Shown here: positions 2,030-17,867 of the stretch, one piece after another
Position numbering within the stretch: the stretch's first letter is position 1
Layout: each line of letters begins with the position of its first letter
From: Nitrospirota bacterium
Lineage (GTDB): Bacteria > Nitrospirota > Thermodesulfovibrionia > Thermodesulfovibrionales > JdFR-88
Length of the DNA: 64,000 nucleotides
NCBI GenBank assembly: GCA_021813405.1
Contig: JAKAKS010000043.1
Location: forward strand, 1 to 64,000
Direction: 5' to 3'
Notes under the pieces: generated by a model
Seen by the model: only the letters and a program-made list of their open reading frames with translations
Databases searched by the model: none
What the model was told of the DNA's origin: nothing
Translations under genes and position numbers: made by a program

Positions 2030-2070
2030 TAGTGAGCGCAGCGGGCCGCGCGTGCTTGCGTCTGCACTCT
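2030..2070. repeat. short copy of a GC-rich dispersed repeat
   Basis: The stretch at about 2038-2070, just past the end of the downstream gene, is nearly the same as 18063-18095. Both contain GGGCCGCGCGTG followed by TGCGTCTGCA. It appears to be a fragment of the dispersed intergenic repeats described elsewhere in this annotation. Confidence 0.45.
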
Positions 2071-3704
2071 CAGTAATTCCTTCTATACAGACTTATCCGG
2101 TAAGCCACCCCTCCGGATGCAGTTTCATCAAATCCGTCCTCCAGCGCCGGTCCCTGGACCATAAAACTCTTATCCCGGCCCACTACCATAACGGCTTCAA
2201 GATGGTAATATCTGCCAACAATACTTTCGATGCGGGCCACGTATGGGCTGGCTGCCTTCAAGTCCACACCCAGAGAGGGGGAAAAGGGGATATCGATTAT
2301 ATATTCCGGCGGATTGCCCGCAAGCTCCTTCCAGGTCTTTATCAGGCAATCGGGATACCTTGGGTGAGTGGGCATGATATGCGCCCACCAGGGGTAAGGT
2401 GTTGCATTCATGCGGCGGGAATAGAACAGGATTTCAGGCTCCGACCCTATTATGAAAACCCGTGCGTCCGGTCCGGTGCGGGCGGAGATATATTTGGCAA
2501 TCTGTTTGGCTTCAGGAAAAGGATTGTAGCCAAAAAGGAGCCCGCTTATCGCATCAGGGTTTTTTTGGAAATAATATTTGCCGCTGGCCCAGACTGGAAC
2601 CAATATAAGCAGGGCCGCCATCAAGGGGTATGCGATTTTCCTGAGGGTGGCACGCGTGTTTGCCAGAATGCCGCTTGCCCCGAAGCCGGCTGCCAGAGAG
2701 GCCGCAGGCAAAATTTGGGCAAAATAATGCGGATACCCGGCCCCAGGCAAGGCCCCAATGAATGAAAAACCAAGAAATCCCAGAATAAAATATCCCTTGC
2801 CGTCTTTTTTTAAGGCCGCGTAAACCGCTGAAAACAAACCAATGCCCAGCACCGGAAAGTCTTCCATAACAAGTCTGTGGAGGCTGGTTTTTAAAATGGT
2901 TAATTTGGTTGCGTAGGTAAATGCCTTGCCATAATAAAAATCATAAATAAAATTCCAATAAAAAAAATCCGGCAAGGCCTTTTTGAAATAGAAATAAGCA
3001 GTGATCATGGCGGAAACAGCCAGCCCACCCGCAAACCATAGAAACAAACCGGATAAAAGACCGGGCCGGGGCTTTTCCCTGCCGGCCGCTCTCAATGAAA
3101 CGCAAACATATATAAGAACAAACAGGATGCTGAACACGGCAGATTGCTTTGTCCAGCACGCCAGAGAACCAGATACTCCGCTTGCCAATAAGTAAGCCGG
3201 CGCCCTCCTTTGAACAGCCAGCACCGCAAAAAGCAGGCTTAAAGTTATGGGCAGGAGCATGAACATTTCCATCGACGCGGTAAACCCCAGTATTGCCGGT
3301 GATGAACTGAACACGGCGTATACCAGGGCCGTCCAGAACGCAACGGATGCCCGTTTCCACAAAACCCTGGCCAGAATGTAAAGCGAAACAACGGTCAGGA
3401 AATTATAAATATGCAAAAAGATATGGATGCCGGCGGAAGTAGAGGGAACAAACAGCAGGGCCAGTGCATACAGGAAGAAAGCCAGGGGGGGCTTGCCGTC
3501 CGCAATGTCCCTATAAAGGACACCGTGCTTTAATATGACCTGCCCGAAATAGCCGAATGAGCCTTCATCCCTGTTAAGGGGAACATTTATAAAATGCACC
3601 CTGGCAGCAACATAAACCGGCACAATCAGCAACCACGGCAGGATTTCCCCGAGGGGGAATCCCGCACTCTTTGCCCGCCAGTCAAAACATGTAATTCGCC
3701 CCAT
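2070..3704 (-). CDS. GT39/ArnT-like membrane glycosyltransferase
   Basis: A 544-residue polytopic membrane protein. After the first transmembrane segment it carries NRDEGSFGY (about residues 44-52). This (D/R)DE motif in the first periplasmic loop is typical of the PMT_2/ArnT GT-C family, which moves sugars from polyprenyl-phosphate carriers to lipids or proteins. Ten or more further hydrophobic segments follow, then a soluble C-terminal domain of about 150 residues. It ends 190 bp before the TPR-containing GT-C gene and lies 72 bp after the tetraheme cytochrome on the same strand, so it may belong to the cytochrome operon. A glycosylation role is family-level inference and the target is not known. 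Confidence 0.75.
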   Translation of the reverse strand: MGRITCFDWRAKSAGFPLGEILPWLLIVPVYVAARVHFINVPLNRDEGSFGYFGQVILKHGVLYRDIADGKPPLAFFLYALALLFVPSTSAGIHIFLHIYNFLTVVSLYILARVLWKRASVAFWTALVYAVFSSSPAILGFTASMEMFMLLPITLSLLFAVLAVQRRAPAYLLASGVSGSLACWTKQSAVFSILFVLIYVCVSLRAAGREKPRPGLLSGLFLWFAGGLAVSAMITAYFYFKKALPDFFYWNFIYDFYYGKAFTYATKLTILKTSLHRLVMEDFPVLGIGLFSAVYAALKKDGKGYFILGFLGFSFIGALPGAGYPHYFAQILPAASLAAGFGASGILANTRATLRKIAYPLMAALLILVPVWASGKYYFQKNPDAISGLLFGYNPFPEAKQIAKYISARTGPDARVFIIGSEPEILFYSRRMNATPYPWWAHIMPTHPRYPDCLIKTWKELAGNPPEYIIDIPFSPSLGVDLKAASPYVARIESIVGRYYHLEAVMVVGRDKSFMVQGPALEDGFDETASGGVAYRISLYRRNY

Positions 3705-3776: not shown

Positions 3777-4670
3777 TTATTTCTTGTGGCAGTCCTCACA
3801 AAGCTGGCTTTTATTGAGCGTGTCTCTTAAAAACGGGTATGTGCCATTTACATCAGCCGGATTCCCTTCATTATGCACATCGTGGCAAGTGGCGCATTCC
3901 ATGCTTATACGGTGCCCTAATTGGAAATCCCAGTTGTCCGTGGGGCTGGGAAAAAACAGGAGGTGCGAGCTGGCCACAACATTTTCAATGGGGACGAATT
4001 CGGGATCCGGGTTTGCAAGGGTGGACGTATAATCCATACTTACCGGATGATCGTTTGCCAGGTCCATCACGCAGTCAGGCTGGCCCGGATTGCACCCGCC
4101 GATATTAGGGTTCATCCCACCCCCCGCAACAGGACTGTCCGTGGTATAGGGCCCACCTATTCCGCCTATCTGGGAATAACCCTTAACAATCTGCAAGCCT
4201 CCCCCCACACCCCTAACGCCATCCGATGGATAATTCGTCAGCACATTCATGGCCCCCACCCCGTCGTGGCAACTAAGGCATAAAAGCGAATAGATGCGCA
4301 GATTGGTGGGCGCATTTGTAAAAGTGGACGTGGCATAAGGCGTATAGGAAACCGCGTTGGAAAGGCTTCTGTTCCAGAGAAATTCGTGCTGGTCCATGCT
4401 TCCGGAATTCCATATGCCGGCGGATGAAAATGTTGTGTTCGATGCAACCGGCGCCGGAGTGGCGTTAATGGCGCCATGCGGAGTATGGCAAAAAACGCAC
4501 ACCTGTTCAGTCTGGTATGTATATTCTGAGGCCGCGCTGTTTACAGACAAATCGTGCTTGGAGCCCACAACGCCGGAAACCGAGTCCGCATGGGATTTGC
4601 CGCCAAACAGCATTAAAACACATATCAGGCAGATGCCCGCAATCAGATAAAGTCCGCGATGATTTACCAT
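3777..4670 (-). CDS. Exported tetraheme c-type cytochrome (paralogue of the one at 12061)
   Basis: A 297-residue protein with a cleavable signal peptide ending near SHADS. It has four CXXCH heme sites: CVFCH, CLSCH, CATCH and CEDCH. Conserved extra histidines at KHD, TPHG, HPV and DVHN could be the distal ligands, giving four bis-His hemes. Order and spacing match the tetraheme protein encoded at 12061-12921 (shared CVFCH, LWN, CLxCHDG, HPV), so the two are paralogues. The gene overlaps the end of the octaheme gene by 7 bp. The upstream GTG would add two residues; I used the ATG. It could be a minor subunit or companion of a cytochrome filament; this is inference. Confidence 0.85.
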   Translation of the reverse strand: MVNHRGLYLIAGICLICVLMLFGGKSHADSVSGVVGSKHDLSVNSAASEYTYQTEQVCVFCHTPHGAINATPAPVASNTTFSSAGIWNSGSMDQHEFLWNRSLSNAVSYTPYATSTFTNAPTNLRIYSLLCLSCHDGVGAMNVLTNYPSDGVRGVGGGLQIVKGYSQIGGIGGPYTTDSPVAGGGMNPNIGGCNPGQPDCVMDLANDHPVSMDYTSTLANPDPEFVPIENVVASSHLLFFPSPTDNWDFQLGHRISMECATCHDVHNEGNPADVNGTYPFLRDTLNKSQLCEDCHKK

Positions 4671-5938
4671 GGCCACTTCATCGACCCCATCGGGCCAGTT
4701 ATCTGCGTCATGCCATGATCGGCCCCATGGCAGCTCAGGTAACAGTAAGGTTTGCCCGCCTGGTAAGAAATCATGAGCGGCCCGCCGGCGGACCCGTTTG
4801 TCACCACGGAGGTATCAAACTGGATAAGGAAGCTGTTTGTGGTGCTGCCGTGCGCCGTATGGCAGTCATGGCATGAAGCCTGCTCGTAAACAATATGAAA
4901 TTTATGGGCCTGAAAGCTCTGGTCGCCCAGTATGCTGTTTCTATCGTGGCAGCCATAGCAAAGCGCATAAGCCTCCGGTGATTCAGGGCCGTCCAGCGTA
5001 TTGTATTGCCTTACAAGTATCGGAGCGTAATCGGAACCGTGAGGGCCTATCGGGCCAGAGGGGTCGCTGTTACCGTGGCAGTCTGTGCATTTTATTGTGC
5101 TTGCCGTGGTATATCCCTTTGTAAGGCTTGGCACCTGCATGTTCCTGCCTGGAAGCTCTACCGGATGATAGGACGGGTTCATCGGGTTGAATAACAGCCT
5201 TAGATTTTCAGCCCCCGCCGGCTTGTTTGCACTGTCGGCATGGCAACGGAAGCAGATCTCGTATTCTGCCTGGGCCCTGTCGAGCACTCCAACGGCCGAA
5301 TATCCCATGGCACCCCTGGTCGGGTTGGACGGCGTATCCTCATGCGGGTTGTGGCAGTCCAGACAGCTTACGTACCTGGGGGCAAGAGGATTGGCCTGAG
5401 GCTTCTGCTGGTATCTCGCATAAAGCCCCCCGGTTGTCCAGAAAGGGTGAACGGAAGGCTTCATCCTTAGCGATTCAAGGTCAGTCCTGGCTTCTTCACG
5501 AACAGAGGTTTTAATAGTGCCATGACAGTTAAAACATGATTTCTGGCCTCCGCCGGATGAGTGGCAAGACGAGCAGCCACCCGGATTCTGAACCGGGTCC
5601 ATATGCGTGGGTATGGTGTTATCTGAATTGTCTGAATTATTTTGGGGCGCTGCCATGTTAATCGCCGGCGGCGGACTAATTACCGGTATATTATAGGCCG
5701 GCTTTGGCGTATTGGAAACAGGCATTGGACTCAAACCCGGACTTTTTATGCTGGAAACGGGAAGAAGATTCTGCACCGGCTTTGGCGCAACAGGGACGGG
5801 CGCGGGGATAAAAAACCCTCTGTCATGATTGACCACCGGCGCAGTTAGCCGGGCCGCAAAAGCTGTACCCACTATTAATAAAACCACGGCTGACACGGCC
5901 GGTATCAGCTTTCGCAAACGGAAAAAGCTCTTTCTCAT
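4664..5938 (-). CDS. Exported octaheme c-type cytochrome with one CX3CH site
   Basis: A 424-residue protein. The start follows the NHL gene's stop by 1 nt and has a G-rich ribosome site (CTGGGGGGT), so an upstream in-frame ATG was rejected. The signal peptide ends near GTAFA and is followed by a Pro-rich linker of about 80 residues. Seven canonical heme sites are visible (CSSCH, CFNCH, CLDCH, CFRCH, CTDCH, CYGCH, CHDCH), plus CYLSCH near the C terminus, which is a CX3CH site. Many sites follow the doubled-CXXCH style (CLDCHNPH, CHDCHTAH). It is probably a periplasmic or outer-membrane electron carrier feeding the neighbouring tetraheme proteins. The exact family is not recognised. Confidence 0.85.
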   Translation of the reverse strand: MRKSFFRLRKLIPAVSAVVLLIVGTAFAARLTAPVVNHDRGFFIPAPVPVAPKPVQNLLPVSSIKSPGLSPMPVSNTPKPAYNIPVISPPPAINMAAPQNNSDNSDNTIPTHMDPVQNPGGCSSCHSSGGGQKSCFNCHGTIKTSVREEARTDLESLRMKPSVHPFWTTGGLYARYQQKPQANPLAPRYVSCLDCHNPHEDTPSNPTRGAMGYSAVGVLDRAQAEYEICFRCHADSANKPAGAENLRLLFNPMNPSYHPVELPGRNMQVPSLTKGYTTASTIKCTDCHGNSDPSGPIGPHGSDYAPILVRQYNTLDGPESPEAYALCYGCHDRNSILGDQSFQAHKFHIVYEQASCHDCHTAHGSTTNSFLIQFDTSVVTNGSAGGPLMISYQAGKPYCYLSCHGADHGMTQITGPMGSMKWPW

Positions 5939-5939
5939 T

Positions 5940-6953
5940 TCATTTACCCCCCAGGAATTTAAACGCCTGAATCCTGGCATTAAGACTGTCTGAAACGAAA
6001 ATCCTGTTTTGCCCGTCCACACATATGCCCGATGGCAGGGTAAACTGGCCATAATATGAACCCTGCTGGCCGAAAAACATCATGAGCCTGCCTTTTTTGT
6101 CGAATATCTTTATCATGTCCTGGCCGGCATCGGCCACAAATATGTATCCTTGCCTGCTCACGGCTATCCCTTTTATCCTTTCAAAATCCCTGAAATCGTC
6201 GCCTATCACACCAAACGCCCCCTTGAAGGAGCCATCAGGTCCGAACATCTGCACCCTGAAATTTCCGGTATCGGCCACGTAAAGGGTCCCCCCCCGGCCT
6301 ACGGCTGCGAATGTGGGGAAATTGAATTCTCCATTGCCAGCGCCACGATGGCCTATCTTTCTGAGCAGCCTGCCCGAAAGGTCAAATACGCAGACATCGT
6401 TGGCCCATGTATCCACTACATACACCAAACCCCTGGCCTGATCCACAGCCAGCCCCGTCGGCCTCAGGAAACCGGCCTTGAAATCAAAAAGATAGGCGCC
6501 TTTTTCATCCAATGCAAAAACTTTCCTTAAATCCGGGTCCGTGACATATATTTTGCCACTTCCGCCCGCAACTGAAAGAGGATAAACCATCCTGTCTGAG
6601 CCGGCGGAGGTAAAAAAATCGGACTTCATGGTTTTTAAATCCACCATATCAACGCGGCCCGCCCCCGGGTCCGCCACGTAAAGGTTGTCCTTGCTGTCCA
6701 CAAAAACCCCTCTGGGGGAGACAAGCAGCCCGGAATCCCCTGCTTGCGGAGAAGAAATCACGGACCATTGGCCAGGCGACGGGGCGATAACAAAACCCTG
6801 ATTTACCCTTGCCATCGACCAGAGGTATTCTATCCTGGGCTTCTCAGGCGGGCCGGGCCAGATTATCCCTTGCGAAAGCGAATAATCTATCTCTGCCTTA
6901 CCAGCCGTACAGGCGCTGGCGATCAAAAGAAGCAATACGCAAAATCTCTTCAT
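5940..6953 (-). CDS. NHL-repeat beta-propeller lipoprotein
   Basis: A 337-residue protein with a lipoprotein signal (LLLLIASAC, cysteine near residue 15) and about six NHL blades. The blades are recognisable by repeated VDSKDNLYVADPG, VGRGGTLYVADTG and VDGQNRIFVSDS patterns with FGxxG turns. Lipid-anchored six-bladed propellers of this kind often accompany multiheme cytochromes. In the Geobacter osc cluster a beta-propeller protein affects nanowire morphology. Here it lies between the prolyl isomerase (110 bp upstream) and the octaheme gene (1 nt downstream). A second NHL lipoprotein ends the divergent cytochrome block. The role is inferred from context only. Confidence 0.85.
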   Translation of the reverse strand: MKRFCVLLLLIASACTAGKAEIDYSLSQGIIWPGPPEKPRIEYLWSMARVNQGFVIAPSPGQWSVISSPQAGDSGLLVSPRGVFVDSKDNLYVADPGAGRVDMVDLKTMKSDFFTSAGSDRMVYPLSVAGGSGKIYVTDPDLRKVFALDEKGAYLFDFKAGFLRPTGLAVDQARGLVYVVDTWANDVCVFDLSGRLLRKIGHRGAGNGEFNFPTFAAVGRGGTLYVADTGNFRVQMFGPDGSFKGAFGVIGDDFRDFERIKGIAVSRQGYIFVADAGQDMIKIFDKKGRLMMFFGQQGSYYGQFTLPSGICVDGQNRIFVSDSLNARIQAFKFLGGK

Positions 6954-7062: not shown

Positions 7063-8031
7063 TCATTTTCCGTCCAGGATTTCTATTTTGGCCCCCTTCT
7101 TCAGCCTGCTCATAAGCGCATCCGTCAACTTTTTCTTTTTATCGGCAGTCAGGGAGCTTATTATCCCCTGCTTTACGGTGTTGAAGGAAAGCTGCTGCGG
7201 AGGATACACCTGCTCCACTTTAACAATGTTATAACCGTAAAGGGTCTTTATGACTCCGCTGACCTCGCCTGGCTTTAATTGAAAGACTGTTTTCTCCATA
7301 TCCGCGTCCTCAAGCATACCCCTGTGCACGATTCCCCGGTCCCCTTCCTTTACCCTGTATGGGTCCTCGGAATAGTTCCAGGCCATGGTGCCAAAACTCG
7401 CGCCTTTTTTGATCTTGTCCAGTATCTTTTCCGCAAACTGCTTCTTCTTCTGCCAGGCGCTTTCCGGGGCGGCCGGGTCCACCTTGAAGCATATCTCACT
7501 GAGCTTGCGCGCCCCCGGCCTGAAAAAGGTCTTTTTCTTTGCTTCATAGTAGGCCCTTGCTTCCTGGTCCGTGACAACAGATTTGTCACCGATCTCTTTT
7601 CTTTTCAGAGCCTTTATAAGCCAGCCTCTTTTCAGCAAGGCCCAGTATTGCTGCCTTGTAATGCCGTTCCCCTTTAGCCACATTTCAAACCCTTTTGCCC
7701 CGCCCGTCTTGGCAATGACGTATTCTTTTTCGCCTTCCAGCAATTTAGCCGGCATTTTTAGCCCGGCCCTGACCGCCTCCTGGTAACAAAGCTCGTCATC
7801 TATCATCTTTTCCATTATCTGGGGCTTATACTTTGCGATTATATCCCGGGTCAACCTGTGAAAAGTAAAAGGTATAACCTGATTAAACGCCTCGACGTAG
7901 TCAATCTGGGTTAGGTCCGTCCCGTTGACCTTTGCATAAACCTTCTGTTCAGAGGCAATTCCTGTCCCTGGCAGCACTGCCAGAAAGGCCGCCGCCATCA
8001 TTGCTGCTAAAACAAGTTTAAGTCTGCTCAC
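7063..8031 (-). CDS. PpiC/SurA-like periplasmic peptidyl-prolyl isomerase
   Basis: A 322-residue protein with a signal peptide (ending near GTGIAS), an N-terminal SurA_N-like helical region and a parvulin domain at about residues 175-285. The parvulin domain is recognisable by FGTMAWNYSEDP, GDRGIVHRG and GEVSGVIKTLYGYNIVKV. The start is a GTG with AAGGAGG 8 nt upstream. It sits 30 bp after the Gly/Asn-rich outer-membrane protein. A prolyl isomerase chaperone next to multiheme cytochromes parallels OscH of the OmcS nanowire assembly cluster. General outer-membrane protein chaperoning is the alternative role. Confidence 0.88.
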   Translation of the reverse strand: MSRLKLVLAAMMAAAFLAVLPGTGIASEQKVYAKVNGTDLTQIDYVEAFNQVIPFTFHRLTRDIIAKYKPQIMEKMIDDELCYQEAVRAGLKMPAKLLEGEKEYVIAKTGGAKGFEMWLKGNGITRQQYWALLKRGWLIKALKRKEIGDKSVVTDQEARAYYEAKKKTFFRPGARKLSEICFKVDPAAPESAWQKKKQFAEKILDKIKKGASFGTMAWNYSEDPYRVKEGDRGIVHRGMLEDADMEKTVFQLKPGEVSGVIKTLYGYNIVKVEQVYPPQQLSFNTVKQGIISSLTADKKKKLTDALMSRLKKGAKIEILDGK

Positions 8032-8061: not shown

Positions 8062-10374
8062 TTACCATAACCTGTTGAATGCCGTCGCCCATGACCTGCT
8101 GACGCTCAGCATTACTTTCTCATCAAGTGAACTGCCTTGCGGATTTATCATTTGCGAAAGGGTATAATTTGCGCCAACTGAATATGCGCCAATTAAACAG
8201 CTATACGCAGTGGAAATCCCCCTCGTTGCAGTGCCTGCGATCAGATCGCCCGTGTAATTTGCATTGGCAACCAAACTGGACCTGTTTGCAAAACTGGTAT
8301 TGTATTGGGCATACATTTCGTAGGTCAAAGAGGCAGAGCCGACATGTGACGCATTTTCTGACATCTGTCCATGTACCTGCAGGACTGAAAGGCCAGATAA
8401 CTGCCACAGCAAATCACCCCCCAACCAGGCCGACTGACTCACGCCGGCATCCATCTGAGTTAACGTGTTGCCCGCGGTGCCCATGGCCATCAAGTCCCAT
8501 TTTATGGGGTACCGATATTCAGCTGTAGTACTCAGAGTATTAACGTATGGCAGCGCCCCTTTCCCAAAAGAGGTGGCAAAACCGTACACTCCGGTAAGCT
8601 GAAGCCGCCCAAGCCCCCTTGACGTGGCCTGCAAGTTAAGTTCCAGAGGCACCACCCCATTGCCCTGGGGTTCGATTCCCGCGCCGCCATACCCGGTATA
8701 TGCCGAAGCTATAAGGGTAGCATGTTTGTACCGGACGCTTGAAACCTGCCCTCTCAGGGCCAACTCGTATCTGTCTAAATAATGATTCGTGTATGACTGT
8801 CTGATGCCTGCAATAGTGGCGGCACTGGTGGAAACGTTAGATAAATAAAGCGGTGATCCCGCAACCGGGGGCGAATAACTGTCGCCAACACCAACTCCGG
8901 CATTGAAGGTTGCGGCGTAAAAAGCGGTTTCCGTATCGCTCAGCCTGAAGGTCCTTAGCCTTGACAAGCCGGTTATACCGTTGGCAGAGGCATTATAGGC
9001 ATACAGGGTTCCGAGCACATTTGATTTTTCTACTTCCCCTCCCAGATTCAACGTGTAATTGAAATAATGCTTGAGTCTGCCGATATAAGCATAATTGCCG
9101 GAAAGAATGCCGCCATAATCCGAACCCCAATTATAAAGACTGTAAAAACCGTTCAACCCGACACTAACGGTCCCCCAGGGGAAAGCCCTGCCTACATTTG
9201 CGAATAAGTTGAAATTATGAGTGCCTGTTGTATTCTGCGGAGTGCCGATGCCCACATAATTATAAGAAAATCCCAACGAATATGCAGCTATCATCCTGCC
9301 ATAAGCAGGAGGAATATTATGCATGTCCATCCTAAAATCCGCCAGTGTGGTTGTGAACGGCTCGCTGCCAATTGATTGACTGAAACTGCGGTTAAAATCC
9401 ATGCTGATTACTGGATAAGTTACCGCGGTAAATTCCTTGTAATCCGTCAACTGGTCCGACAGACTTCCGCCAGCACTACTGCGCCCTGCGGGACTCCAGA
9501 ATTCTTCGGTTTCCCCGTTATTGCCCGTATTAGCGTTCCCGTCTTCATATCCGTTATTATTGTCCAAACTGTTGTTGCCGCCATTGCCACCATTGCCACC
9601 ATTGCCACCATTGCCACCATTGCCACCATTGCCACCATTGCCACCATTGCCACCATTGCCACCATTGCCACCATTGCCACCATTGCCACCATTATTGCCG
9701 TTATTGGCATTGTTGCCATTTGCATTATTGTTGCCGCCATTGCCGCTGTTTTGAGACTTATTCCCCGCGCTATACATTTGTTCCATGTAAGCGACATGCT
9801 GCTGCCTAACCAGATAATCTTTATCGTATTCCACCTTCCTTCCATCGCCTGGCAGAATTCTTAGCACACCCTGCCTCATGTAAGTTGTGGAAAAGCCGTA
9901 ATAGTAGGCCGAGCCGCCCGGCGCCTTTTCATAACCGAACCTTACAAAAATGGGCTTGGGGAAATATTTCCAGAAATGCGCGGCGGTATTCGGATCCAGG
10001 GTATCCAACAGATACAAATTCCCATTCAGTCCGGCCGTGTAGCCCGCACTTGAGTAAAAATTGTTCATGGCCGAATCGTAATACATGCCCGTAACCTCGA
10101 ATGCCGCCAGCCTGGGGTCATATATGTAACCCTTGAAATGGCTTGTATAGTTTTGAAAGACGGAATAATTGGAAGCGATATCGCCCCACTCTCTCTGGTA
10201 AACAAGGCCGGCGGTAAAGTCCAGATAATAATAATGTCCGCTGAATCTGGGAGCCACCATTGCGCCCGCAATTGCCGGAAACAAAATAAAAAATACCAAA
10301 CAGGCCGCGGCCAAATGGTTTTTGAGCTTCCCCGGCCGCACCTGCTTTCCTGTTACGGCCTGGTCAAATCTCAT
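8062..10374 (-). CDS. Large outer-membrane beta-barrel-like protein with a Gly-Gly-Asn repeat
   Basis: About 770 residues, with an N-terminal hydrophobic signal (residues 22-42) and no cytosolic domain. The body is rich in Tyr, Gly, Ser and Asn with alternating aromatic strands, as in large beta-barrels. It ends in AFNRLW, a terminal aromatic as in many outer-membrane proteins. A linker near residues 215-290 contains about 13 tandem GGN units flanked by other Asn/Gly-rich sequence. The family is not recognised. Encoded among a prolyl isomerase, a beta-propeller and cytochromes, it could be the secretion channel or an outer-membrane conduit. The start overlaps the preceding gene by 11 bp; GTG two codons upstream is an alternative. 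Confidence 0.7.
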   Translation of the reverse strand: MRFDQAVTGKQVRPGKLKNHLAAACLVFFILFPAIAGAMVAPRFSGHYYYLDFTAGLVYQREWGDIASNYSVFQNYTSHFKGYIYDPRLAAFEVTGMYYDSAMNNFYSSAGYTAGLNGNLYLLDTLDPNTAAHFWKYFPKPIFVRFGYEKAPGGSAYYYGFSTTYMRQGVLRILPGDGRKVEYDKDYLVRQQHVAYMEQMYSAGNKSQNSGNGGNNNANGNNANNGNNGGNGGNGGNGGNGGNGGNGGNGGNGGNGGNGGNGGNGGNNSLDNNNGYEDGNANTGNNGETEEFWSPAGRSSAGGSLSDQLTDYKEFTAVTYPVISMDFNRSFSQSIGSEPFTTTLADFRMDMHNIPPAYGRMIAAYSLGFSYNYVGIGTPQNTTGTHNFNLFANVGRAFPWGTVSVGLNGFYSLYNWGSDYGGILSGNYAYIGRLKHYFNYTLNLGGEVEKSNVLGTLYAYNASANGITGLSRLRTFRLSDTETAFYAATFNAGVGVGDSYSPPVAGSPLYLSNVSTSAATIAGIRQSYTNHYLDRYELALRGQVSSVRYKHATLIASAYTGYGGAGIEPQGNGVVPLELNLQATSRGLGRLQLTGVYGFATSFGKGALPYVNTLSTTAEYRYPIKWDLMAMGTAGNTLTQMDAGVSQSAWLGGDLLWQLSGLSVLQVHGQMSENASHVGSASLTYEMYAQYNTSFANRSSLVANANYTGDLIAGTATRGISTAYSCLIGAYSVGANYTLSQMINPQGSSLDEKVMLSVSRSWATAFNRLW
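9581..9694. repeat. 9-bp tandem repeat encoding Gly-Gly-Asn
   Basis: About 12.5 near-perfect copies of CCATTGCCA (plus strand), lying inside the outer-membrane protein gene and read on the minus strand as GGN. The units are almost identical at the DNA level, so copy number could change by slippage without breaking the reading frame. Confidence 0.95.
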
Positions 10375-10690
10375 GAACACCAGTCCGTGCGTTTTTCATG
10401 GGCGTATTTTTCCTTCTGCCCTTTAAAGGCATACCGGCCCCACGGCCCTCCAGGAAAGCTATATCCCTTTTTAAAGTAGCAAGAGAACAAAGCAACAGAC
10501 ACGACAAGTCAAAATATGAAAGCAGCACGCCCTGCTCGCTGGCCTCATTGGCCAGCCGTACGGCCCTCCTGCGCCGCAGCTCCGTAATTCCGTATTTATC
10601 CAGCACCTCATTATCACCATGGTCTATCAGAGTGAGTTTGAGCTGCCGTCCGCTTCCGTTGGCCGTATATTCTATTTTTCCGAATTCCAA
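10364..10690 (-). CDS. Small DUF1670-like HTH protein, copy 2
   Basis: A 108-residue protein starting with TTG directly after the stop codon of its paralogue and preceded by GGAGA. A region rich in Arg (LRRRRAVRLANEA) is followed by QGVLLSYFDLSCLL and SLATLKRDIAFLEGRG. The last looks like the recognition helix of a helix-turn-helix and recalls DUF1670 proteins. The C terminus is basic. It shares the pattern QGxxLSYxDLS...ATLKRDxxFL with the protein encoded immediately upstream, so this is a tandem duplication. It overlaps the start of the large outer-membrane protein gene. It probably regulates the cytochrome operon, but no function has been shown. Confidence 0.6.
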   Translation of the reverse strand: MEFGKIEYTANGSGRQLKLTLIDHGDNEVLDKYGITELRRRRAVRLANEASEQGVLLSYFDLSCLLLCSLATLKRDIAFLEGRGAGMPLKGRRKNTPMKNARTGVHEI

Positions 10691-11074
10691 TTATTTCTCC
10701 ATAAAAGTGGCTGGCCCGCCTGCCCTATGGTCATGGGCCTGATACAGGGCCTGCGGTGGCAAAACGCCGGATTCCATCGCCCCGGAATAACTGCGCACCA
10801 TTTCAGAGCCCGCATTCTCACCCGGCTCTAAACCAAGATTCCTCAAAAAACGCATGTCCCGCTTCAGCGTGGCCTTCGAGGAAAGCATTATCATGCTCAA
10901 GTCCCTGTAACTCAGTTTTGCTCCCTGGCAGCCCGCTTCCTGAAGAATGCGCGCAAGCCTCTTCCTTCTGATATCCGGGATGGCCCCGCGGTCATCATCG
11001 GCACAAAAAGTAAGTTTTAATGCCCGCATCCTGTTGGCCCCGTCCGGCACCCAATAAACAAGTGTTCCGTTCAT
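10691..11074 (-). CDS. Small DUF1670-like HTH protein, copy 1
   Basis: A 127-residue protein, first gene of the leftward cytochrome operon, with AAGGGGG six nt before its ATG. Its core (RRKRLARILQEAGCQGAKLSYRDL in part, then SSKATLKRDMRFLRNLG) matches the next gene and resembles an HTH of the DUF1670 type. The N-terminal 30 residues differ and the C terminus is a poorly ordered tail. Upstream lie a pair of 11-bp direct repeats 21 bp apart and two palindromes, possible operators for this pair. The assignment as regulators is inference from the HTH-like pattern and position. Confidence 0.6.
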   Translation of the reverse strand: MNGTLVYWVPDGANRMRALKLTFCADDDRGAIPDIRRKRLARILQEAGCQGAKLSYRDLSMIMLSSKATLKRDMRFLRNLGLEPGENAGSEMVRSYSGAMESGVLPPQALYQAHDHRAGGPATFMEK

Positions 11075-11099
11075 TCGTTTCCCCCTTAAAACTTAAAAA

Positions 11100-11131
11100 C
11101 TGTGTTATATGCCCAACAATCTGTGCTATAT
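11100..11131. promoter_or_regulatory. Direct repeats 21 bp apart upstream of the DUF1670-like genes
   Basis: CTGTGTTATAT (11100-11110) and CTGTGCTATAT (11121-11131) lie on the same strand 21 bp apart, about two helical turns. They are just upstream of the first gene of the leftward cytochrome operon and would suit a protein binding one DNA face. Confidence 0.35.
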
Positions 11132-11186
11132 ACCATATAATTGCTTCGCAGTAACATGTTCCAGAGTGGCCCTACCTGCCTCAAAA

Positions 11187-11200
11187 GGCTCATATGAGCC
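11187..11200. promoter_or_regulatory. 14-bp perfect palindrome GGCTCATATGAGCC
   Basis: A perfect 14-bp dyad in the long gap between the divergent cytochrome operons. The same 12-bp core occurs again exactly 250 bp away at 11438-11449. It is likely a protein-binding site, of unknown cognate. Confidence 0.5.
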
Positions 11201-11437
11201 CGTATTTTCATGAAAAAATTTAAACCACATCGCACAAGGTTCGCTCTATAGCATACAAATAGCATGCCAAACGAAAAACCCCTTTGGGCCAGCTTAGCTT
11301 TATCTCTCAAACACATTGAATATGAATAAAACGTGAAGATTCTTTGAAGGAATTATGTATTACTGGATTTTGATTTTAAAAGAAAGCGGGACCGGTGTTT
11401 TGGGAATTAAACCCGCACTGGAAGGCAAAAATAGAAA

Positions 11438-11449
11438 GCTCATATGAGC
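11438..11449. promoter_or_regulatory. 12-bp palindrome GCTCATATGAGC (second copy)
   Basis: Second copy of the dyad seen at 11187-11200, with centres 250 bp apart (about 24 helical turns). The paired spacing would suit DNA looping between the two divergent promoters. Confidence 0.5.
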
Positions 11450-11895
11450 CATACAAAAGCCTGCACATGTTTGCGCAATTTCTGAAAAAAACTGTCCGGC
11501 CAAACTCTAGCACACGAAAACTTACAAATCGCTTACACACAAAAGCAGAGCCAATATGTCTTCATCGGTTGAGCCCCTCACTGTCAAAAAAAGCAGGTCC
11601 TCAATCTATTCATTTAAATAAAGGGTTTTATTAATAACACTCCCTGGCCTGGAGGCCAGGGTATCTTTTGGGTGCCCCGGCTTCGCCGGATAGCTCCGCT
11701 TCGCTGCGGGCGGCCATTCATCCACATCATTAAAGGTTGGGAAAGGCTGGGGTTTTCTGGAAGCTATGATAATAAATTTAAACAGTAGACATTGGTTCCC
11801 TCTGTTTTTCCTGCCCCCCCAGCCCGGATAGTAATTGCAACTTCCATCATTTCCATTATTACCATTTAAAAACTTCATTATGGGTCTTTTCACAA

Positions 11896-11915
11896 TGGGT
11901 GAGTTTTTTCACCCA
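11896..11915. promoter_or_regulatory. Inverted repeat, possible enhancer-binding site
   Basis: TGGGTGA and TCACCCA face each other across a 6-bp T-rich centre, about 120 bp upstream of the predicted start of transcription from the sigma-54 promoter at 12003. This is the usual distance range for sigma-54 activator sites. The cognate activator is not in this window. Confidence 0.4.
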
Positions 11916-12002
11916 ACAGTAATTTCATACCGAAAATTTTCCCATTTAGTTTGCATATTGAATTTAAAGGAAATTTATCGTTATTCATGATTTATTCACA
12001 GT

Positions 12003-12018
12003 TGGCATGACGTTTGCT
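12003..12018 (+). promoter_or_regulatory. Sigma-54 (RpoN) promoter of the tetraheme cytochrome gene
   Basis: TGGCATGACGTTTGCT matches the consensus TGGCACGNNNNTTGCW at every fixed base but one (T for C), with the correct GG-to-GC spacing. Transcription should begin near 12029, giving a leader of about 32 nt that contains AAGGAGG. Confidence 0.75.
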
Positions 12019-12060: not shown

Positions 12061-12921
12061 ATGAAGAAGGTTTTGCTTTTGGCTATCGTGCTGATACTCG
12101 CTATCGGCACAGCGGCTCTGGCCGGCGTTCTCGGATCGCCCCACGACATGACTGCGAATAGCGGTCCGGATGCCAAGGTATCGGGTACCAACCAGGTGTG
12201 CGTATTCTGCCACCACCCTCACAGAGGTGAGGTAAAGGGCTGGACACAGGGCACGCTGCTCTGGAACTACAACAGCTCCAACTATCACTACTCGACCACC
12301 TACGTGTCTGACTCCATGCCGAACAACACCATGAGCATGGACTCAGACGTTATAAAGGGCAGCGGTGGCCCGGCCGTGTACTCACTGTATTGCCTTGGCT
12401 GCCACGACGGCGACACCGGCAACGACACCTTGCTCACAGAGCCGGCAGATGCATCTGTTGACCTTACTAGCGCTGGCTCCTTGGCTGGCATCGGTAGCGC
12501 AATGCAGGTAGACACCGACAACGGCGGCTTCTCCCAGTCCAGGGCTATCGGCTCCGGCTACACGTTGAATGCCGAGCACCCGGTCAACTTCACCGTGTTC
12601 CAGGCTGATGACATGGGCATAGTCACTCCTTACTCCGCAGCCACCATCACCACTCAGAATGACAGCGCAGAGGGTGCGCCCGGCGCGTTCAGCTACAACC
12701 CTTCAGGCACCGCTGGTTATGGCGCCACCGCCAGGGTTATCGTAGGTAACGTGTACAACTCTGACACTTACCCGCTCTTCGCAGGCACGCTGCAGTGCGT
12801 TACCTGCCACCAGCCGCACAACAGCAGCTCTAAGAACCTTTCCTTCATGAGGAACGGCACTCAGTCGAAAGACCTGATGTACGAGAGCGCTATGTGCAGG
12901 GACTGCCACACCAACAAATAA
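12061..12921 (+). CDS. Exported tetraheme c-type cytochrome, probable major filament-type subunit
   Basis: A 286-residue protein with a signal peptide ending near ALAG. It has four heme sites, CVFCH, CLGCH, CVTCH and CRDCH. Extra histidines at PHD, HPHR, HPV and QPHN could supply four distal ligands. The sequence between hemes is rich in Ser, Thr, Asn and Gly. The ATG follows AAGGAGG by 7 nt; an upstream ATG lies inside the promoter and was rejected. Codon use is visibly restricted (AAC, GAC, GGC, CTG, TAC favoured) compared with neighbours, a sign of high expression. It has its own sigma-54 promoter and terminator. Tetraheme size and bis-His ligation recall OmcE-type cytochrome filaments, which is an inference to be tested structurally. 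Confidence 0.9.
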   Translation: MKKVLLLAIVLILAIGTAALAGVLGSPHDMTANSGPDAKVSGTNQVCVFCHHPHRGEVKGWTQGTLLWNYNSSNYHYSTTYVSDSMPNNTMSMDSDVIKGSGGPAVYSLYCLGCHDGDTGNDTLLTEPADASVDLTSAGSLAGIGSAMQVDTDNGGFSQSRAIGSGYTLNAEHPVNFTVFQADDMGIVTPYSAATITTQNDSAEGAPGAFSYNPSGTAGYGATARVIVGNVYNSDTYPLFAGTLQCVTCHQPHNSSSKNLSFMRNGTQSKDLMYESAMCRDCHTNK

Positions 12922-12940
12922 GTCCCTTTTGCAGCAAACA

Positions 12941-12968
12941 AAAGGGGGCCTTCGGGCCCCCTTTTTTA
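12941..12968 (+). terminator. Rho-independent terminator with UUCG loop
   Basis: AAAGGGGGCC, the loop TTCG, then GGCCCCCTTT and further T residues form a perfect 10-bp hairpin with a U-tract, 20 bp after the cytochrome stop codon. Downstream genes would be expressed by readthrough or from another promoter. Confidence 0.95.
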
Positions 12969-13030: not shown

Positions 13031-14887
13031 ATGTCTGCGGTCACAACGGCGCAAAAAACCACTCTGACACATGTGCTTCTGGTCCTTTGCGTTGCGTTCA
13101 TCGCATATAGCGGTTGCCTGGCCAACGGTTTTGCTGGTGATGATAACGCAATGATTATCAATGACCATTGGATCAGAAGCTTTTCGTTTGCCGGACAGGC
13201 ATTCTTTAGCAATGCGTGGGGTTTTGACAAGGACTTTTCAAGTTATTACAGGCCTCTCCAGCAATTGGCCTATATGTTTTTTTATGCCATGTTCGGGTTA
13301 AAGCCTTTGGGATGGCACCTGGCCAACATCGCGCTGCACGCCATAAATTCCACCCTGGTTTATTTTATTGCACTCCAGATAATTGCAATATGTTTCAGGC
13401 CCGAAACCGGCGCTGCGAAACCAGATTTCCCAAATGAAACGGAGGCTGCCGGCCAAACCCGCTCCGAGGCAAGCCTCAGGATTGGGCCTCTCGCAGCCGC
13501 GCTCATCTTTGCCGCCCATCCGATACATGTAGACGCGGTGGCCTCACCTGCCGTATTTCCAGACCTGCTGGCCGCATTTTTCTCGTTCACGGCCCTTCTG
13601 GTTTTCATAAGGCGTGCAGGACGGATGACAAACACAAAAGGATACGCCGGATATTTTGCCATTGAGTTTTCATTGCTTCTAGCCGCTTTTTTAAGCAAGG
13701 AGCCTGCCCTGACCATGCCATTTGTTTTTGTAGCCTATGATGTCTCGCTAAATAAAACCGCTGATTCCATGACAAGCCGTAAACAGGGAAAGCCAGCAGT
13801 CAGGACGCTTGTCAGGTACGCCCCCTCAATCTGCGCCATGGCAGTATATTCCGCTATGCGTTTATACGCCCTGGGAGGGTTCGGCGGAAATGATTTCCAC
13901 CCGGAAATAGGGCTGGAATCGAATATTTTGAGCGGCGTAAAATTCTTCGCGCTTTATCTTTTAAAGACATTTGTCCCGTATAGCTTGAACGCAGGATATG
14001 ATTTCCGTCCTGTTTCCTCCTTGCTTCCGCTTGGTTGGCAGCTGCCACTTTCCGCTTTTGCATGCGGGCTTTTTGTATTTTTCTTGTATGCCTCATTCAG
14101 GAGGCCCGGAACCGGTTACGGAAAAGGTTATTTTTTTTCCGGCCTTTTTTTTGCCTTGCCGCTTCTGCCTGCCCTCGACCTTCATGCACTGATACAGTTT
14201 TTTTTTGCTGAACGATACCTTTATATTCCGCTGGCCGGCTTTTCCCTTGCGCTTGGGATTTTTTTTGAGAGCGCGCTTAACGGAAATCTTGTAAAAACTG
14301 CCTTCCCGTCTAAAAAAGCCTCTGCTTTTCTGATATTCCTGATTTTAACTCTGCTGATTGCCTTCTATGGGGCTTCAACATTCGAGAGGACCCGTGTCTG
14401 GAAAAACAATTACTCTTTATGGGCCGACATAGCATCCAAATCGCCAGACAACGGCATGGCGCACTTCAATTATGGAGACGGCCTGAAGAAAGAAGGGAAG
14501 TTCGACGAGGCTATTGCCCAGTACCGGGAGTCAATCAAACTTATACCCTATTATATGGACGCTTACATCAGCCTGGGCGACATTTTAACGCTGAAAGGTG
14601 ACAATCAGGGCGCGGCGAAGGTGTATGAGGCCGCCCTTTCAATCAACTCCGGCACAAGCGATGCGCCCCTTATCCGCTACAACCTTGCCCGCGCATATCA
14701 GTCCATGGGCAAGATTGACGCGGCCATCGGTGAATACAGGATGATCCTTCAGGAACGCCCCGACCCGGTCGCCTACCGCTGTTTGGCGGACCTGCTATGC
14801 CGTTCGGGAAACCGGAATGAAGCAAAGGCTTTATACAGGAAGGCTCTTAAATTGGATCCGATGACCGCCGGCGGCACATGTAAATAG
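13031..14887 (+). CDS. GT-C/TPR membrane protein (TMTC-like), tandem copy 1
   Basis: A 618-residue polytopic membrane protein. After the first hydrophobic segment comes NGFAGDDNAM, an acidic pair in the first outer loop as expected for GT-C glycosyltransferases. RPLQQLAY and GWHLANIALHA follow. About ten membrane segments precede three or four C-terminal TPR units (FNYGDGLKKEGKFDEAI, NLARAYQSMGKIDAAI). The start at the ATG after the terminator is preferred to an in-frame ATG before it. The gene is a clear duplicate of the next one, 12 bp away. Association with an abundant Ser/Thr-rich exported cytochrome suggests O-glycosylation of that cytochrome; this is inference. Confidence 0.75.
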   Translation: MSAVTTAQKTTLTHVLLVLCVAFIAYSGCLANGFAGDDNAMIINDHWIRSFSFAGQAFFSNAWGFDKDFSSYYRPLQQLAYMFFYAMFGLKPLGWHLANIALHAINSTLVYFIALQIIAICFRPETGAAKPDFPNETEAAGQTRSEASLRIGPLAAALIFAAHPIHVDAVASPAVFPDLLAAFFSFTALLVFIRRAGRMTNTKGYAGYFAIEFSLLLAAFLSKEPALTMPFVFVAYDVSLNKTADSMTSRKQGKPAVRTLVRYAPSICAMAVYSAMRLYALGGFGGNDFHPEIGLESNILSGVKFFALYLLKTFVPYSLNAGYDFRPVSSLLPLGWQLPLSAFACGLFVFFLYASFRRPGTGYGKGYFFSGLFFALPLLPALDLHALIQFFFAERYLYIPLAGFSLALGIFFESALNGNLVKTAFPSKKASAFLIFLILTLLIAFYGASTFERTRVWKNNYSLWADIASKSPDNGMAHFNYGDGLKKEGKFDEAIAQYRESIKLIPYYMDAYISLGDILTLKGDNQGAAKVYEAALSINSGTSDAPLIRYNLARAYQSMGKIDAAIGEYRMILQERPDPVAYRCLADLLCRSGNRNEAKALYRKALKLDPMTAGGTCK

Positions 14888-14899
14888 GTTTTTATTATC

Positions 14900-16768
14900 A
14901 TGAAACCTGGCGCAAAACACGGTTCCGGCACCGTTCTGAAAACGCTCCCCCGCAAGTTCCTGGTTCCTGCCACAATTATTCTGTTTACCTTCCTGGCTTA
15001 TTTCAAATGCCTTGGTAATGGATTTGCAGGCGACGACTCCGAAATGATTGTCGAAAATCCATGGATCAAGAGTCTTGCGCTTGCCAGCCGGGCTTTTTTC
15101 AATAATGCCTGGGGTTTTGAAAAAATTGGTTCAAGTTATTACAGGCCCCTTCAACAGATGGCCTACATGGTCCTGTACTCTTTATTCGGGCTTAGGCCGC
15201 TGGGATGGCACCTGGCAAGCATTGCCCTGCATGCCCTGAACTCTGTTCTGGTTTATTTTTTAGCACGTGAAGTAACAGGCTTATGTTTTTCCAGTACCGG
15301 CCACGGCCGGACAGAAAACGGTGGAAGCGCCGCCGGGGCTGGCCCGATTGCGGCCGCCCTCATCTTTGCGGCGCATCCTGTCCATCTGGAGGCTGTGGTA
15401 TCGTCTTCTGCTTTCCCGGACCTGATGGCCGCGTTCTTTTCATTCCTGGCCCTTCTGGTTTTTATAAAACATTCCGGGCGGTCCGGATACGCGGGATATT
15501 TTGTGCTTGAGCTTTCATTGTTGCTCTCCGCCTTTTTAAGCAAAGAGCCGTCCTTTGCAATGCCGCTTGTTTTTGTTGCCTACGATGTCTCTTTGGGTAA
15601 ATTGGCGCGCCAGCGCGCTACCAGCCCGCAGGCCGGCCAGAAATCCCCAAGGCCGGCAGCTTCTGCCATTATTAAATATATCCCGGCATTATGCGCGATG
15701 GTTGCATATTCCTGGTTGCGCATAAATGCGCTTGGCAGGTTTACCGGGGTCGATTACCACCCGGAATTGGGTTCAGTTGCAGACATACTGAGCGGGGCGA
15801 AATTCTTCGCGCTTTACCTTTTTAAAACCTTTTCCCCTGTCAATTTAAATCCAGGCTATGATTACCACCCGGTATCGTCCATGCTTCCGCTTGACTGGAA
15901 ATTCCTTGTTGCAGCCCTCACTACCATGGGTTTTATTTTATTTCTGGCCATGTCATCCAGAAAAAGCAAGTCTTCAGGTATCTGGAACGGGTATTTATTT
16001 TCCGGCCTGTTTTACGCTCTCCCATTACTGCCCGCTCTTGACCTGCACGGGCTTGTGGACTTCCTGTTTGCCGAGAGATACCTCTACATGCCAGCGGCTG
16101 GCTTTTCCATTGCTTTGGGAATTACTCTGGAGAAATTGCTGCGCGGCAATATTGTAAAACCTGTCCTTCTGCCCAGGAAAGCAGTGTCTTTTGGTGTGCC
16201 TATCGTTTTAGCGCCACTGCTTGTTTTTTACGCAGCTTCGGATTTTAAAAGGGCCCCCATATGGAAAAATAACTCCACATTGTGGACCGAAATGCATCTG
16301 ACATCGCCTGATAATGGATTGGTAGAATTGAATTATGGCGATGTCCTCAGAAAAGAAGGAAGGCTGGATGAGGCTATCGCCCAATACCGTCAAGCCATAC
16401 GGAAAAAACCATACTACCTGGGCATTTACGTGAACCTGGGCGGCACTCTGATGCTTAAGGGAGACAATGAGGGTGCGGCAAAGGTATTTCAAGATGCCCT
16501 GTTCCTAAATTTGGATGCCGGCGAAGCGCCTCTCATTCATCGCGAACTTGCAAATGCCTATCTGGCGATGGGCAAGACAGAGCCTGCCATTGCAGAATTC
16601 AGGATAAGCCTTCAGCAATTGCCTGATGCGGGCAGTTACCGGGAAATGGCCGGCTTGCTTTGCAGGCTGGGCCGCAGCGTGGAAGCCGAAAAGGCATACA
16701 GGCAAGCCTTTCAACTTGATGGGGCAGGCCCTCTCCATTGCGACAGCCGGCCGTATCAGCACTCTTGA
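14900..16768 (+). CDS. GT-C/TPR membrane protein (TMTC-like), tandem copy 2
   Basis: A 622-residue protein, collinear with the preceding gene. It shares NGFAGDDSEM in the first outer loop, SSYYRPLQQMAY, GWHLASIALHALNS, the FLSKEP motif, the LFAERYLYMP segment and C-terminal TPR units (NYGDVLRKEGRLDEAI, ANAYLAMGKTEPAI). Retention of both copies with the acidic motif intact suggests each is functional, perhaps acting on different sites or acceptors. It also resembles the single-copy TPR protein at 173-1879. The sugar donor and acceptor cannot be read from sequence. Confidence 0.75.
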   Translation: MKPGAKHGSGTVLKTLPRKFLVPATIILFTFLAYFKCLGNGFAGDDSEMIVENPWIKSLALASRAFFNNAWGFEKIGSSYYRPLQQMAYMVLYSLFGLRPLGWHLASIALHALNSVLVYFLAREVTGLCFSSTGHGRTENGGSAAGAGPIAAALIFAAHPVHLEAVVSSSAFPDLMAAFFSFLALLVFIKHSGRSGYAGYFVLELSLLLSAFLSKEPSFAMPLVFVAYDVSLGKLARQRATSPQAGQKSPRPAASAIIKYIPALCAMVAYSWLRINALGRFTGVDYHPELGSVADILSGAKFFALYLFKTFSPVNLNPGYDYHPVSSMLPLDWKFLVAALTTMGFILFLAMSSRKSKSSGIWNGYLFSGLFYALPLLPALDLHGLVDFLFAERYLYMPAAGFSIALGITLEKLLRGNIVKPVLLPRKAVSFGVPIVLAPLLVFYAASDFKRAPIWKNNSTLWTEMHLTSPDNGLVELNYGDVLRKEGRLDEAIAQYRQAIRKKPYYLGIYVNLGGTLMLKGDNEGAAKVFQDALFLNLDAGEAPLIHRELANAYLAMGKTEPAIAEFRISLQQLPDAGSYREMAGLLCRLGRSVEAEKAYRQAFQLDGAGPLHCDSRPYQHS

Positions 16769-16794
16769 CATGTAAATTTAATCCGGTATATAGT
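16765..16794 (+). promoter_or_regulatory. Sigma-70-type promoter placed for a leaderless transcript
   Basis: TTGACA (16765-16770), an 18-bp spacer and TATAGT (16789-16794). The -10 hexamer begins 14 nt before the ATG at 16803, so transcription should start at or next to the start codon. No ribosome binding site is present. Confidence 0.65.
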
Positions 16795-16802
16795 AGATAG
16801 TC

Positions 16803-17867
16803 ATGCGTTTTCGTAATCTTCTTCTGCTTGCTATAGTCCTCGGTTTCGCGTTTGGATGTGCGGTTAATCAAAAGCGGCCCGATTATAGCGGCATATACTG
16901 GCCTAAGGCACCGGACAGGCCTCGAATTCAACTTCTGAAAATAATCTACTCGTCTAAGGATGTAAAACGGGAGGATGCAACCAGCGCGCTTCTCGGGGCT
17001 TCCGGCGCAGGGTGGTCATTCATGAAGCCCCACGGAGTTGCCGTCGATGATAGTGACAACGTTTATGTCAGCGATACCGGCAACATTGGAATAGATGAAT
17101 TCAATCTTGATACCGGTGAAACGTCCTCGCTTACCCCGATGGGTGGCTGGTCTTTGCCAGGGGCTGTAGCCGTTGACAACGCTGATGGGTTGATAGCTGC
17201 CGTTAACGGAAAGAAAATAGATATATATGACATAAAAACCCATAAAGACAAATACACCATAGGCCAGAATGGCGATTTCAAGAGGCCGTCCGGGCTTGCC
17301 TTTGATCAGGCGAGGAAAATCCTGTATGTCTCAGACTCCAGGGACAATCGCCTGTACGCTTACAGCATCTACGGAAAGCGTGAAAAGGTATTGGCAAAAC
17401 CCGGGCTTAAAAAAGGAAATGTGTTCTATCCGCTTGGCCTTGCCACAGACGCGAAAGGCAATCTGTACGAAGTGGATTCCATGAACTGGCGCATTAAGGT
17501 CTTCAGCCCCGAGGGCGAAGAAATACGCACCTGGGGCAAACACGGGGACAGGACCGGCATGTTCGACAGGCCCAAGGCGCTTGCTATTTCAAAGGACGGT
17601 TTTGTGTTTGTTACCGATGCTCAGTTCTGTAATTTTCAGGTGTTTGATGAGTTTGGACACGCCTACATGTTCTTCGGCGACCCTGGAGACAAGCCTGGCA
17701 GGTTCCTGATACCGGAGGGCATTGCCGTGGATAACCAGGACCGCATTTATGTAGCGGACTCCGAAAACGGCCGCGTAGAAGTTTTCCAGTTGATGACTGA
17801 CGCCTGGTGGGCCAAGCATCCAGAAGGGCTTGCTTATTTTAAAACCCATCATAACGGTGGATTTTAG
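16803..17867 (+). CDS. NHL-repeat beta-propeller lipoprotein, second copy
   Basis: A 354-residue lipoprotein (signal LLLLAIVLGFAFGC) with six NHL-type blades (VDDSDNVYVSDTG, ISKDGFVFVTDA, VDNQDRIYVADSENG). It shares with the NHL protein at 5940-6953 the opening Y-S-x-x-x-I-W-P-x-x-P-x-x-P-R-I pattern after the lipid cysteine and the overall length, so the two are paralogues on opposite arms of the divergent cytochrome locus. It has its own promoter, inferred leaderless, overlapping the end of the preceding gene. It probably works at the outer membrane or periplasm with the cytochromes. Confidence 0.85.
   Translation: MRFRNLLLLAIVLGFAFGCAVNQKRPDYSGIYWPKAPDRPRIQLLKIIYSSKDVKREDATSALLGASGAGWSFMKPHGVAVDDSDNVYVSDTGNIGIDEFNLDTGETSSLTPMGGWSLPGAVAVDNADGLIAAVNGKKIDIYDIKTHKDKYTIGQNGDFKRPSGLAFDQARKILYVSDSRDNRLYAYSIYGKREKVLAKPGLKKGNVFYPLGLATDAKGNLYEVDSMNWRIKVFSPEGEEIRTWGKHGDRTGMFDRPKALAISKDGFVFVTDAQFCNFQVFDEFGHAYMFFGDPGDKPGRFLIPEGIAVDNQDRIYVADSENGRVEVFQLMTDAWWAKHPEGLAYFKTHHNGGF

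Follow-up and report, generated by a model that had tools for sequence, protein, structure and literature searches.

A pair of GT-C/TPR membrane proteins beside an OmcE-like filament cytochrome in a Nitrospirota genome: candidate enzymes for nanowire glycosylation

The window analysed here is a 64,000-nucleotide stretch (G000:C31:1-64000) that begins contig JAKAKS010000043.1 of a Nitrospirota bacterium, whose genome (GCA_021813405.1, G000, hereafter the own genome) spans 2.9 Mb in 56 contigs. It contains a locus of two diverging gene arms that meet at about 11.1 to 12.0 kb, with a 930-bp gap (11075-12006) between them. The right arm, on the forward strand, encodes in order a tetraheme cytochrome (12061-12921, 286 aa), two membrane proteins that combine features of GT-C glycosyltransferases with C-terminal tetratricopeptide repeats (TPRs) (13031-14887 and 14900-16768), and an NHL beta-propeller protein (16803-17867; PF01436, 4.1e-30). 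The left arm lies on the reverse strand and is described further below. Comparisons were made with 60 relatives (61 genomes in total), of which one, G001, belongs to the same genus. Judged by its sequence, the locus probably encodes an extracellular, OmcE-type cytochrome filament, and its candidate glycosylation machinery is the GT-C/TPR pair.

The tetraheme cytochrome has four CXXCH motifs and matches two PDB entries, 9yuq (E = 2.7e-11) and 7tfs (E = 1.7e-12); the latter is titled 'Cytochrome c', and we take it to be OmcE. Filament-cytochrome relatives are found in 30 of the 61 genomes. Histidines 31, 55, 155 and 210 (numbered by the first row of the alignment) are invariant across 21 such sequences and are candidates for donation to a neighbour's heme. 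A sigma-54-like promoter site (TGGCATG-ACGT-TTGCT), located by motif search at 12003-12018 on the forward strand, overlaps the start at 12007 chosen by the open reading frame caller, so 12061 is the likely start of the gene. Using what we take to be the sigma-54 consensus, similar sites were found upstream of 21 of the 23 high-scoring filament genes of the order, including the one in the window, and one of the two misses has lost its upstream region to a contig end. The whole window holds just two sites of this type. Their distribution suggests that nanowire production is under sigma-54 control.

The own genome also encodes a second OmcE-like tetraheme cytochrome (9441-10190 of L067, on G000:C40). 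Its serine and threonine fraction is 0.12 and it has no GT-C neighbour within 6 kb, which makes it a natural comparison for studies of glycosylation.

The GT-C/TPR genes lie between the cytochrome and NHL genes on the same strand, beginning about 110 bp past the cytochrome stop codon and ending 34 bp before the NHL start codon. A sigma-70-like promoter (11 of 12 positions matching) at 16765-16794 overlaps the end of the second GT-C gene, just 5' of the NHL gene. The two genes are 12 bp apart, both have ATG starts, and their polytopic products of 618 and 622 aa carry TPRs (TPR_2 matches of 6e-21 and 3.2e-14). The proteins are tandem duplicates that are 54% identical over 601 aa and 58% identical within the membrane part. 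In a tree, they form a single clade with the G001 gene (support 100/100), and their nearest relatives are own-genome genes on contigs C5 and C6, away from cytochromes. In G001, the cytochrome is followed by the first pair gene in one stretch (L065) and the second is followed by the NHL gene in another (L196), which implies that the pair is kept in a second species of the genus; there the first gene is cut by a contig end, whereas both are intact in the window.

The original prediction, made from the letters of this stretch, had described two duplicated TMTC-like proteins 3' of the tetraheme gene, and the open reading frames bear this out. It had also placed a third TPR protein and a GT39 protein at the end of the opposite arm. 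Both are present, at 173-1933 and 2070-3704 of the reverse strand, although the third TPR protein belongs to a different clade and shares just 24% identity with the first. The acidic pair that was said to be kept in the first outer loop of all three TPR proteins is indeed there, as DD at residues 37, 45 and 52, respectively, and the GT39-like (PMT_2) protein has DE.

Members of the family to which the pair belongs mostly share RP, SKE and ERYLY motifs in addition to the D-D in the first outer loop. A crude hydropathy count predicts five or six transmembrane helices, compared with the 11 of eukaryotic TMTCs. A structural model based on eight sequences has a mean predicted local distance difference test score (pLDDT) of 60, with a core below 50 and the TPRs as its best-modelled part, and this modest-confidence model aligns with the oligosaccharyltransferase STT3 (6s7t_A; Z 18.6, 337 aligned, root-mean-square deviation 4.4). 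Because a Pfam search at E 0.01 gave no match to DUF1736, the segment that TMTCs have between helices TM7 and TM8, the proteins are called TMTC-like and not TMTC. A profile of the family also found no match among PDB sequences. The motifs, the TPRs and the predicted fold support the view that TMTC-like proteins are of the GT-C/TPR kind.

A second family, which lacks a Pfam model and is named FWH here, is frequently found at the corresponding position in relatives. FWH proteins are polytopic, comprise about 480 to 800 aa, and carry the motif D..WH...G..I near the N terminus and, in most members, weak to clear C-terminal TPRs. Of the 22 genomes of the order that have a high-scoring filament cytochrome, 14 carry an FWH gene within 6 kb of it, compared with 0.32 expected from copy number, an expectation that would rise if profile A2 has missed distant FWH genes elsewhere. 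Of the 39 tetraheme cytochromes with lower scores in the same stretches, only 5 have FWH genes nearby (Fisher P = 4e-5 versus filament genes, counted by gene), and FWH copy number tracks cytochrome number across the 61 genomes (rho 0.60, kinship uncorrected). Profile A2 was built from genes picked at filament loci, and most sequences in the cytochrome profile A3 are filament genes, which biases detection toward such members.

Among the 22 genomes, it is in the window's genus alone that TMTC-like genes are present and FWH genes are absent at the filament locus. In G003 and G005, which belong to the same taxonomic family as the window, the locus carries FWH, whereas the FWH genes of the own genome are all at other places. 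Read most simply, the genus has swapped FWH for the TMTC-like pair. A tblastn search for an FWH remnant in the gap at 11075-12006 found none, the better matches being TPR stretches elsewhere in the window.

FWH proteins are likely to be GT-C enzymes, as judged from a structural model built from five sequences, one of them a fragment. The best six matches of this model in Foldseek are all GT-C enzyme entries, namely DPY19, an oligosaccharyltransferase-translocon chain (presumably STT3) and AftA, with E values from 3e-4 to 4e-3. A second fold comparison (VIA) returned a mixture of TPRs and GT-C enzymes at Z of about 9 to 11, which is inside the tool's stated noise for helical proteins, and for this reason the assignment is considered likely and not established. 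Beyond the TPRs, Pfam gave no match with a useful score, and a search of PDB sequences gave no match. Direct comparison of the FWH and TMTC-like profiles yielded an hhalign probability of 13.6%.

Other genes of sugar metabolism join these loci. Besides the one in the window, PMT_2 matches occur at filament loci L076, L097 and L141, the last slightly below the cut-off (25.7 versus 26.1 bits), and GT2 genes (PF00535) occur at L074, L097 and L141. At L141, from a member of Desulfobulbaceae, the gene order is PMT_2, FWH, GT2, FWH, another protein, the filament cytochrome and NHL. On contig C16 of the own genome, one GT2 gene overlaps a TMTC-like gene (L027) and another GT2 gene meets one (L028). 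GT2 proteins in such positions might make the lipid-linked sugar.

Cytochrome filaments with sugars are known from Geobacter. PMC9473688 describes OmcE as extensively glycosylated, OmcS as glycosylated and OmcZ as without evidence of glycosylation; the sugar on OmcE is expected to give the wire lateral insulation. The OmcE glycosylation is restated in a 2026 paper (PMC13319180). No enzyme for it is named in the passages of PMC9473688 consulted, and a limited literature search likewise found none named for OmcE filament glycosylation.

We lean, by a modest degree, toward the explanation that the locus makes a filament of the OmcE kind and that the GT-C/TPR pair is a dedicated glycosylation module for the cytochrome. 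If the encoded proteins are active enzymes and the cytochrome is their substrate, events would probably proceed in the following order. The cytochrome would be exported, and its hemes attached, in the periplasm. The GT-C proteins would then draw a sugar from a polyprenyl-phosphate carrier by using the two acidic residues in their first outer loop, while the periplasmic TPR arm grips the unfolded or newly matured cytochrome, and would place the sugar on its serine- and threonine-rich stretches. The sugar-bearing subunit would subsequently pass to the peptidyl-prolyl isomerase, NHL and outer-membrane components for export and assembly. In most filament-bearing relatives within the order, the GT-C-looking FWH proteins would serve the same neighbourhood, and they would have been displaced, in the genus of the window, by the duplication of a TMTC-like gene belonging to the genome's own expanded set.

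A broader proposal is held more tentatively, at somewhat short of even confidence. Nanowire loci of the order may carry a slot dedicated to glycosylation that is filled by interchangeable, unrelated-looking GT-C/TPR enzymes: FWH in most lineages, a TMTC-like pair recruited by the window's genus, and sometimes PMT_2 and GT2 partners. The sugar coating would then be built into the making of the nanowire.

Several observations weigh against these proposals. A terminator-like hairpin with a UUCG loop and a T run (12940-12966, forward strand; -24.4 kcal/mol, z -3.75, equalled by none of 200 shuffles) separates the cytochrome from the GT-C pair. In the stretches of the own genome that were read, 16 of 19 TMTC-like genes are not beside a multiheme cytochrome, the three exceptions being those of the window, and several of these stretches stop at contig ends. 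Only 3 of 22 genomes have a TMTC-like gene within 6 kb of a high-scoring filament cytochrome (P = 0.04 versus an expectation of 0.74), and the window's genus accounts for two of the three. At 80 loci found by their cytochrome, TMTC-like genes are within 6 kb in six, one of which is a weak fragment, and FWH genes in three. Neither family is within 6 kb at 6 of the 22 loci of the order, although one of these, G052, has two FWH genes about 7 and 11 kb away. The FWH model has a mean pLDDT of only 53. In a class-wide tally, FWH genes are near 1 of 33 outside the order (G121, in which three FWH genes accompany a lower-scoring cytochrome) and 0 of 4 in new genomes inside it.

In the class-wide sample as a whole, 11 of 30 high-scoring filament cytochromes have an FWH gene within 6 kb, compared with 0.29 expected; all 11 are in previously sampled genomes, and 59 of the 61 genomes with a cytochrome match entered, namely those among the matches listed. 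As a replicate, this sample shows strong linkage in the families in which it was discovered, and the linkage was not reproduced in new genomes. With 6 of the 22 loci having neither family and new genomes mostly lacking FWH nearby, the slot is common in some families of the order and is not a rule for such filaments.

An observation and a check that the original prediction had put forward fared poorly. The cytochrome is rich in serine and threonine, as was claimed (0.21, versus 0.107 +/- 0.028 for 45 proteins of the window). However, the fraction is 0.23 in the cytochromes of L084 and L087, relatives without a GT-C neighbour, so this property fails to distinguish loci with GT-C genes from those without them and was rejected as a mark of the substrate. 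The proposed check, an association of the TMTC-like family with cytochromes in other genomes, mostly failed at the level of the family. TMTC-like copy number is essentially unrelated to the number of filament cytochromes (rho 0.12, 61 genomes), with means of 5.7 matches in genomes with the cytochrome and 6.0 in those without it. The family of genomes richest in copies (f3) includes five with 18 to 24 TMTC-like matches and zero cytochrome matches, and of 48 genomes with related cytochromes, 23 lack TMTC-like copies altogether. Presence and absence in the 61 genomes (24 with both, 6 with the cytochrome alone, 16 with TMTC-like genes alone and 15 with neither) give a weak positive (Fisher P = 0.03, kinship uncorrected); family-level co-occurrence was nonetheless rejected as support, because copy number is unrelated. 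The broader claim of a dedicated glycosylation system for the filament, with the pair as its local version, is made more credible by the reported glycosylation of OmcE and OmcS and by the GT-C-looking FWH family, which 14 of 22 genomes have in this neighbourhood.

The six TMTC-like occurrences among the 80 loci are L120, L122 and L124, which have an identical arrangement and two TMTC-like copies per genome; L164, from Aromatoleum toluolicum; L174, from the window's genus; and L143, a weak TPR-only fragment that is counted in the six and is not used as support. The genomes of L120, L122, L124 and L164 carry only two to three copies. TMTC-like genes are also found at the other arm in G014 and G034. 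On a tree, the TMTC-like label at filament loci requires at least four changes, which implies separate recruitments.

Such repeated recruitment bears on an improbable alternative, in which the pair consists of passengers: copies of an expanded, duplicating family that landed in the operon and have no role in the filament. The 19 copies in the genome, 16 of them elsewhere, the lack of a link between copy number and the filament cytochrome, and the location of the nearest relatives on C5 and C6 are what such a family would be expected to leave. Passengers would not, however, readily account for two genes that are intact in the window and retained in place in a second species (the first being cut there by a contig end), for FWH filling the neighbourhood in G003 and G005, or for at least four independent label changes. 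We give somewhat more room, as a minority possibility, to the idea that the GT-C proteins are real glycosyltransferases for another surface molecule, such as the NHL protein, an outer-membrane protein, lipid A, a polysaccharide or a pilin, in an operon that serves the cell surface. The NHL gene is only 34 bp past the pair, the TMTC-like family is large and also adjoins pilin genes, and GT-C enzymes of the PMT_2/ArnT kind can modify lipids. A different substrate fits less well with the placement of FWH genes, which favour the filament cytochrome when it is compared with 39 other tetraheme cytochromes of these stretches. The glycosylation of OmcE and OmcS, as reported in PMC9473688 and, for OmcE, PMC13319180, also counts against it.

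It is very improbable that the TPR arms are chaperones for assembly or export of the cytochrome and that the membrane part is simply an anchor. The TPRs are the best-modelled part of the protein, and the peptidyl-prolyl isomerase and NHL genes of the cluster are suggestive of an assembly machine. An anchor would not be expected to conserve DD, RP and SKE motifs, which the membrane part retains in both members of the pair, and PMT_2 and GT2 genes would have no evident reason to join filament loci. Dedicated glycosylation of the cytochrome remains the explanation that we favour.

The left arm, read outward from the gap on the reverse strand, begins with two small proteins related to DUF1670 (PF07900): a DUF1670-like protein (10691-11074; 2.5e-5, slightly below the cut-off) that has relatives at other filament loci, and a DUF1670 protein (10364-10690; 6.3e-14). 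They are followed by a large exported protein (8062-10380) that is conserved at filament loci, contains a Gly/Asn repeat stretch, and is perhaps an outer-membrane barrel; a Pfam search assigned it no family. This protein and the two DUF1670-like genes (10364-11074) recur at filament loci of the order. Next are a SurA/PrsA-like peptidyl-prolyl isomerase (7063-8031; PF13616, 3.4e-18), a second NHL beta-propeller protein (5940-6953; PF01436, 7e-27), a heptaheme cytochrome with seven CXXCH motifs (4664-6052) that is conserved at filament loci, and a tetraheme cytochrome with four (3777-4676), a lower-scoring relative of the filament protein (A3 score 151, versus 228 for the filament gene). The arm ends with the PMT_2 membrane glycosyltransferase (PF13231, 7.9e-8; 33.1 bits versus a gathering cut-off of 26.1) and the third TMTC-like protein, recognized by its TPRs, its DD pair and its position in the tree. 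The palindrome GGCTCATATGAGC(C) occurs twice in the gap between the arms (11187-11200 and 11437-11450) and is possibly an operator. Its core is also found twice in the G001 stretch (L065, 9346 and 9586).

TMTC-like genes also occur in or beside clusters of type IV pilin-like genes, at 9877-13587 of L024 (G000:C44) and 8210-15652 of L028 (G000:C16), and one of them adjoins a GT2 gene. They adjoin the pilin clusters of two of five contigs in the own genome (C44 and C16). These TMTC-like proteins are candidate pilin glycosyltransferases, and their location fits enzymes for surface filaments. Elsewhere, at 9023-19001 of L021 (G000:C6), three tandem TMTC-like genes precede three polytopic proteins (548, 567 and at least 405 aa), forming a membrane-protein array.

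The window proteins resemble the eukaryotic O-mannosyltransferases TMTC1-4 (PMC7801869) in having a polytopic GT-C domain with an acidic pair in its first outer loop, motifs like SHKSYRP and KET, and a C-terminal TPR arm. They differ in being bacterial and in lacking a DUF1736 match, are known here from sequence, and have a multiheme cytochrome as neighbour instead of cadherins. The cytochrome resembles Geobacter OmcE, for which glycosylation is reported in PMC9473688, in being a tetraheme protein with a significant match to 7tfs. DPY19, STT3/PglB and AftA/AftD are the GT-C enzymes that best match the fold of the FWH model, and STT3 also matches the membrane part of the TMTC-like model; FWH differs from these enzymes in having no PDB sequence match and no Pfam assignment beyond TPRs, and its model is weak. 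The PMT_2 protein shares the acidic pair with the GT-C/TPR proteins and scores above the curated cut-off for PMT_2/GT39 (PF13231), but unlike them has no TPR.

Glycosyltransferases of the GT-C/TPR kind, O-glycosylation in bacteria and the glycosylation of OmcE are already known. As far as a limited literature search extends, the linkage of GT-C/TPR genes to filament-cytochrome loci, the presence of FWH at these loci, and the local substitution of a TMTC-like pair for it are new. These genes provide concrete candidates for the enzymes that may sugar-coat bacterial nanowires. If the genes in the slot do encode such enzymes, the coating of nanowires would become a genetic question, a membrane/TPR family without a Pfam model would gain a likely function, and bacterial TMTC-like proteins would be tied to surface filaments more generally.

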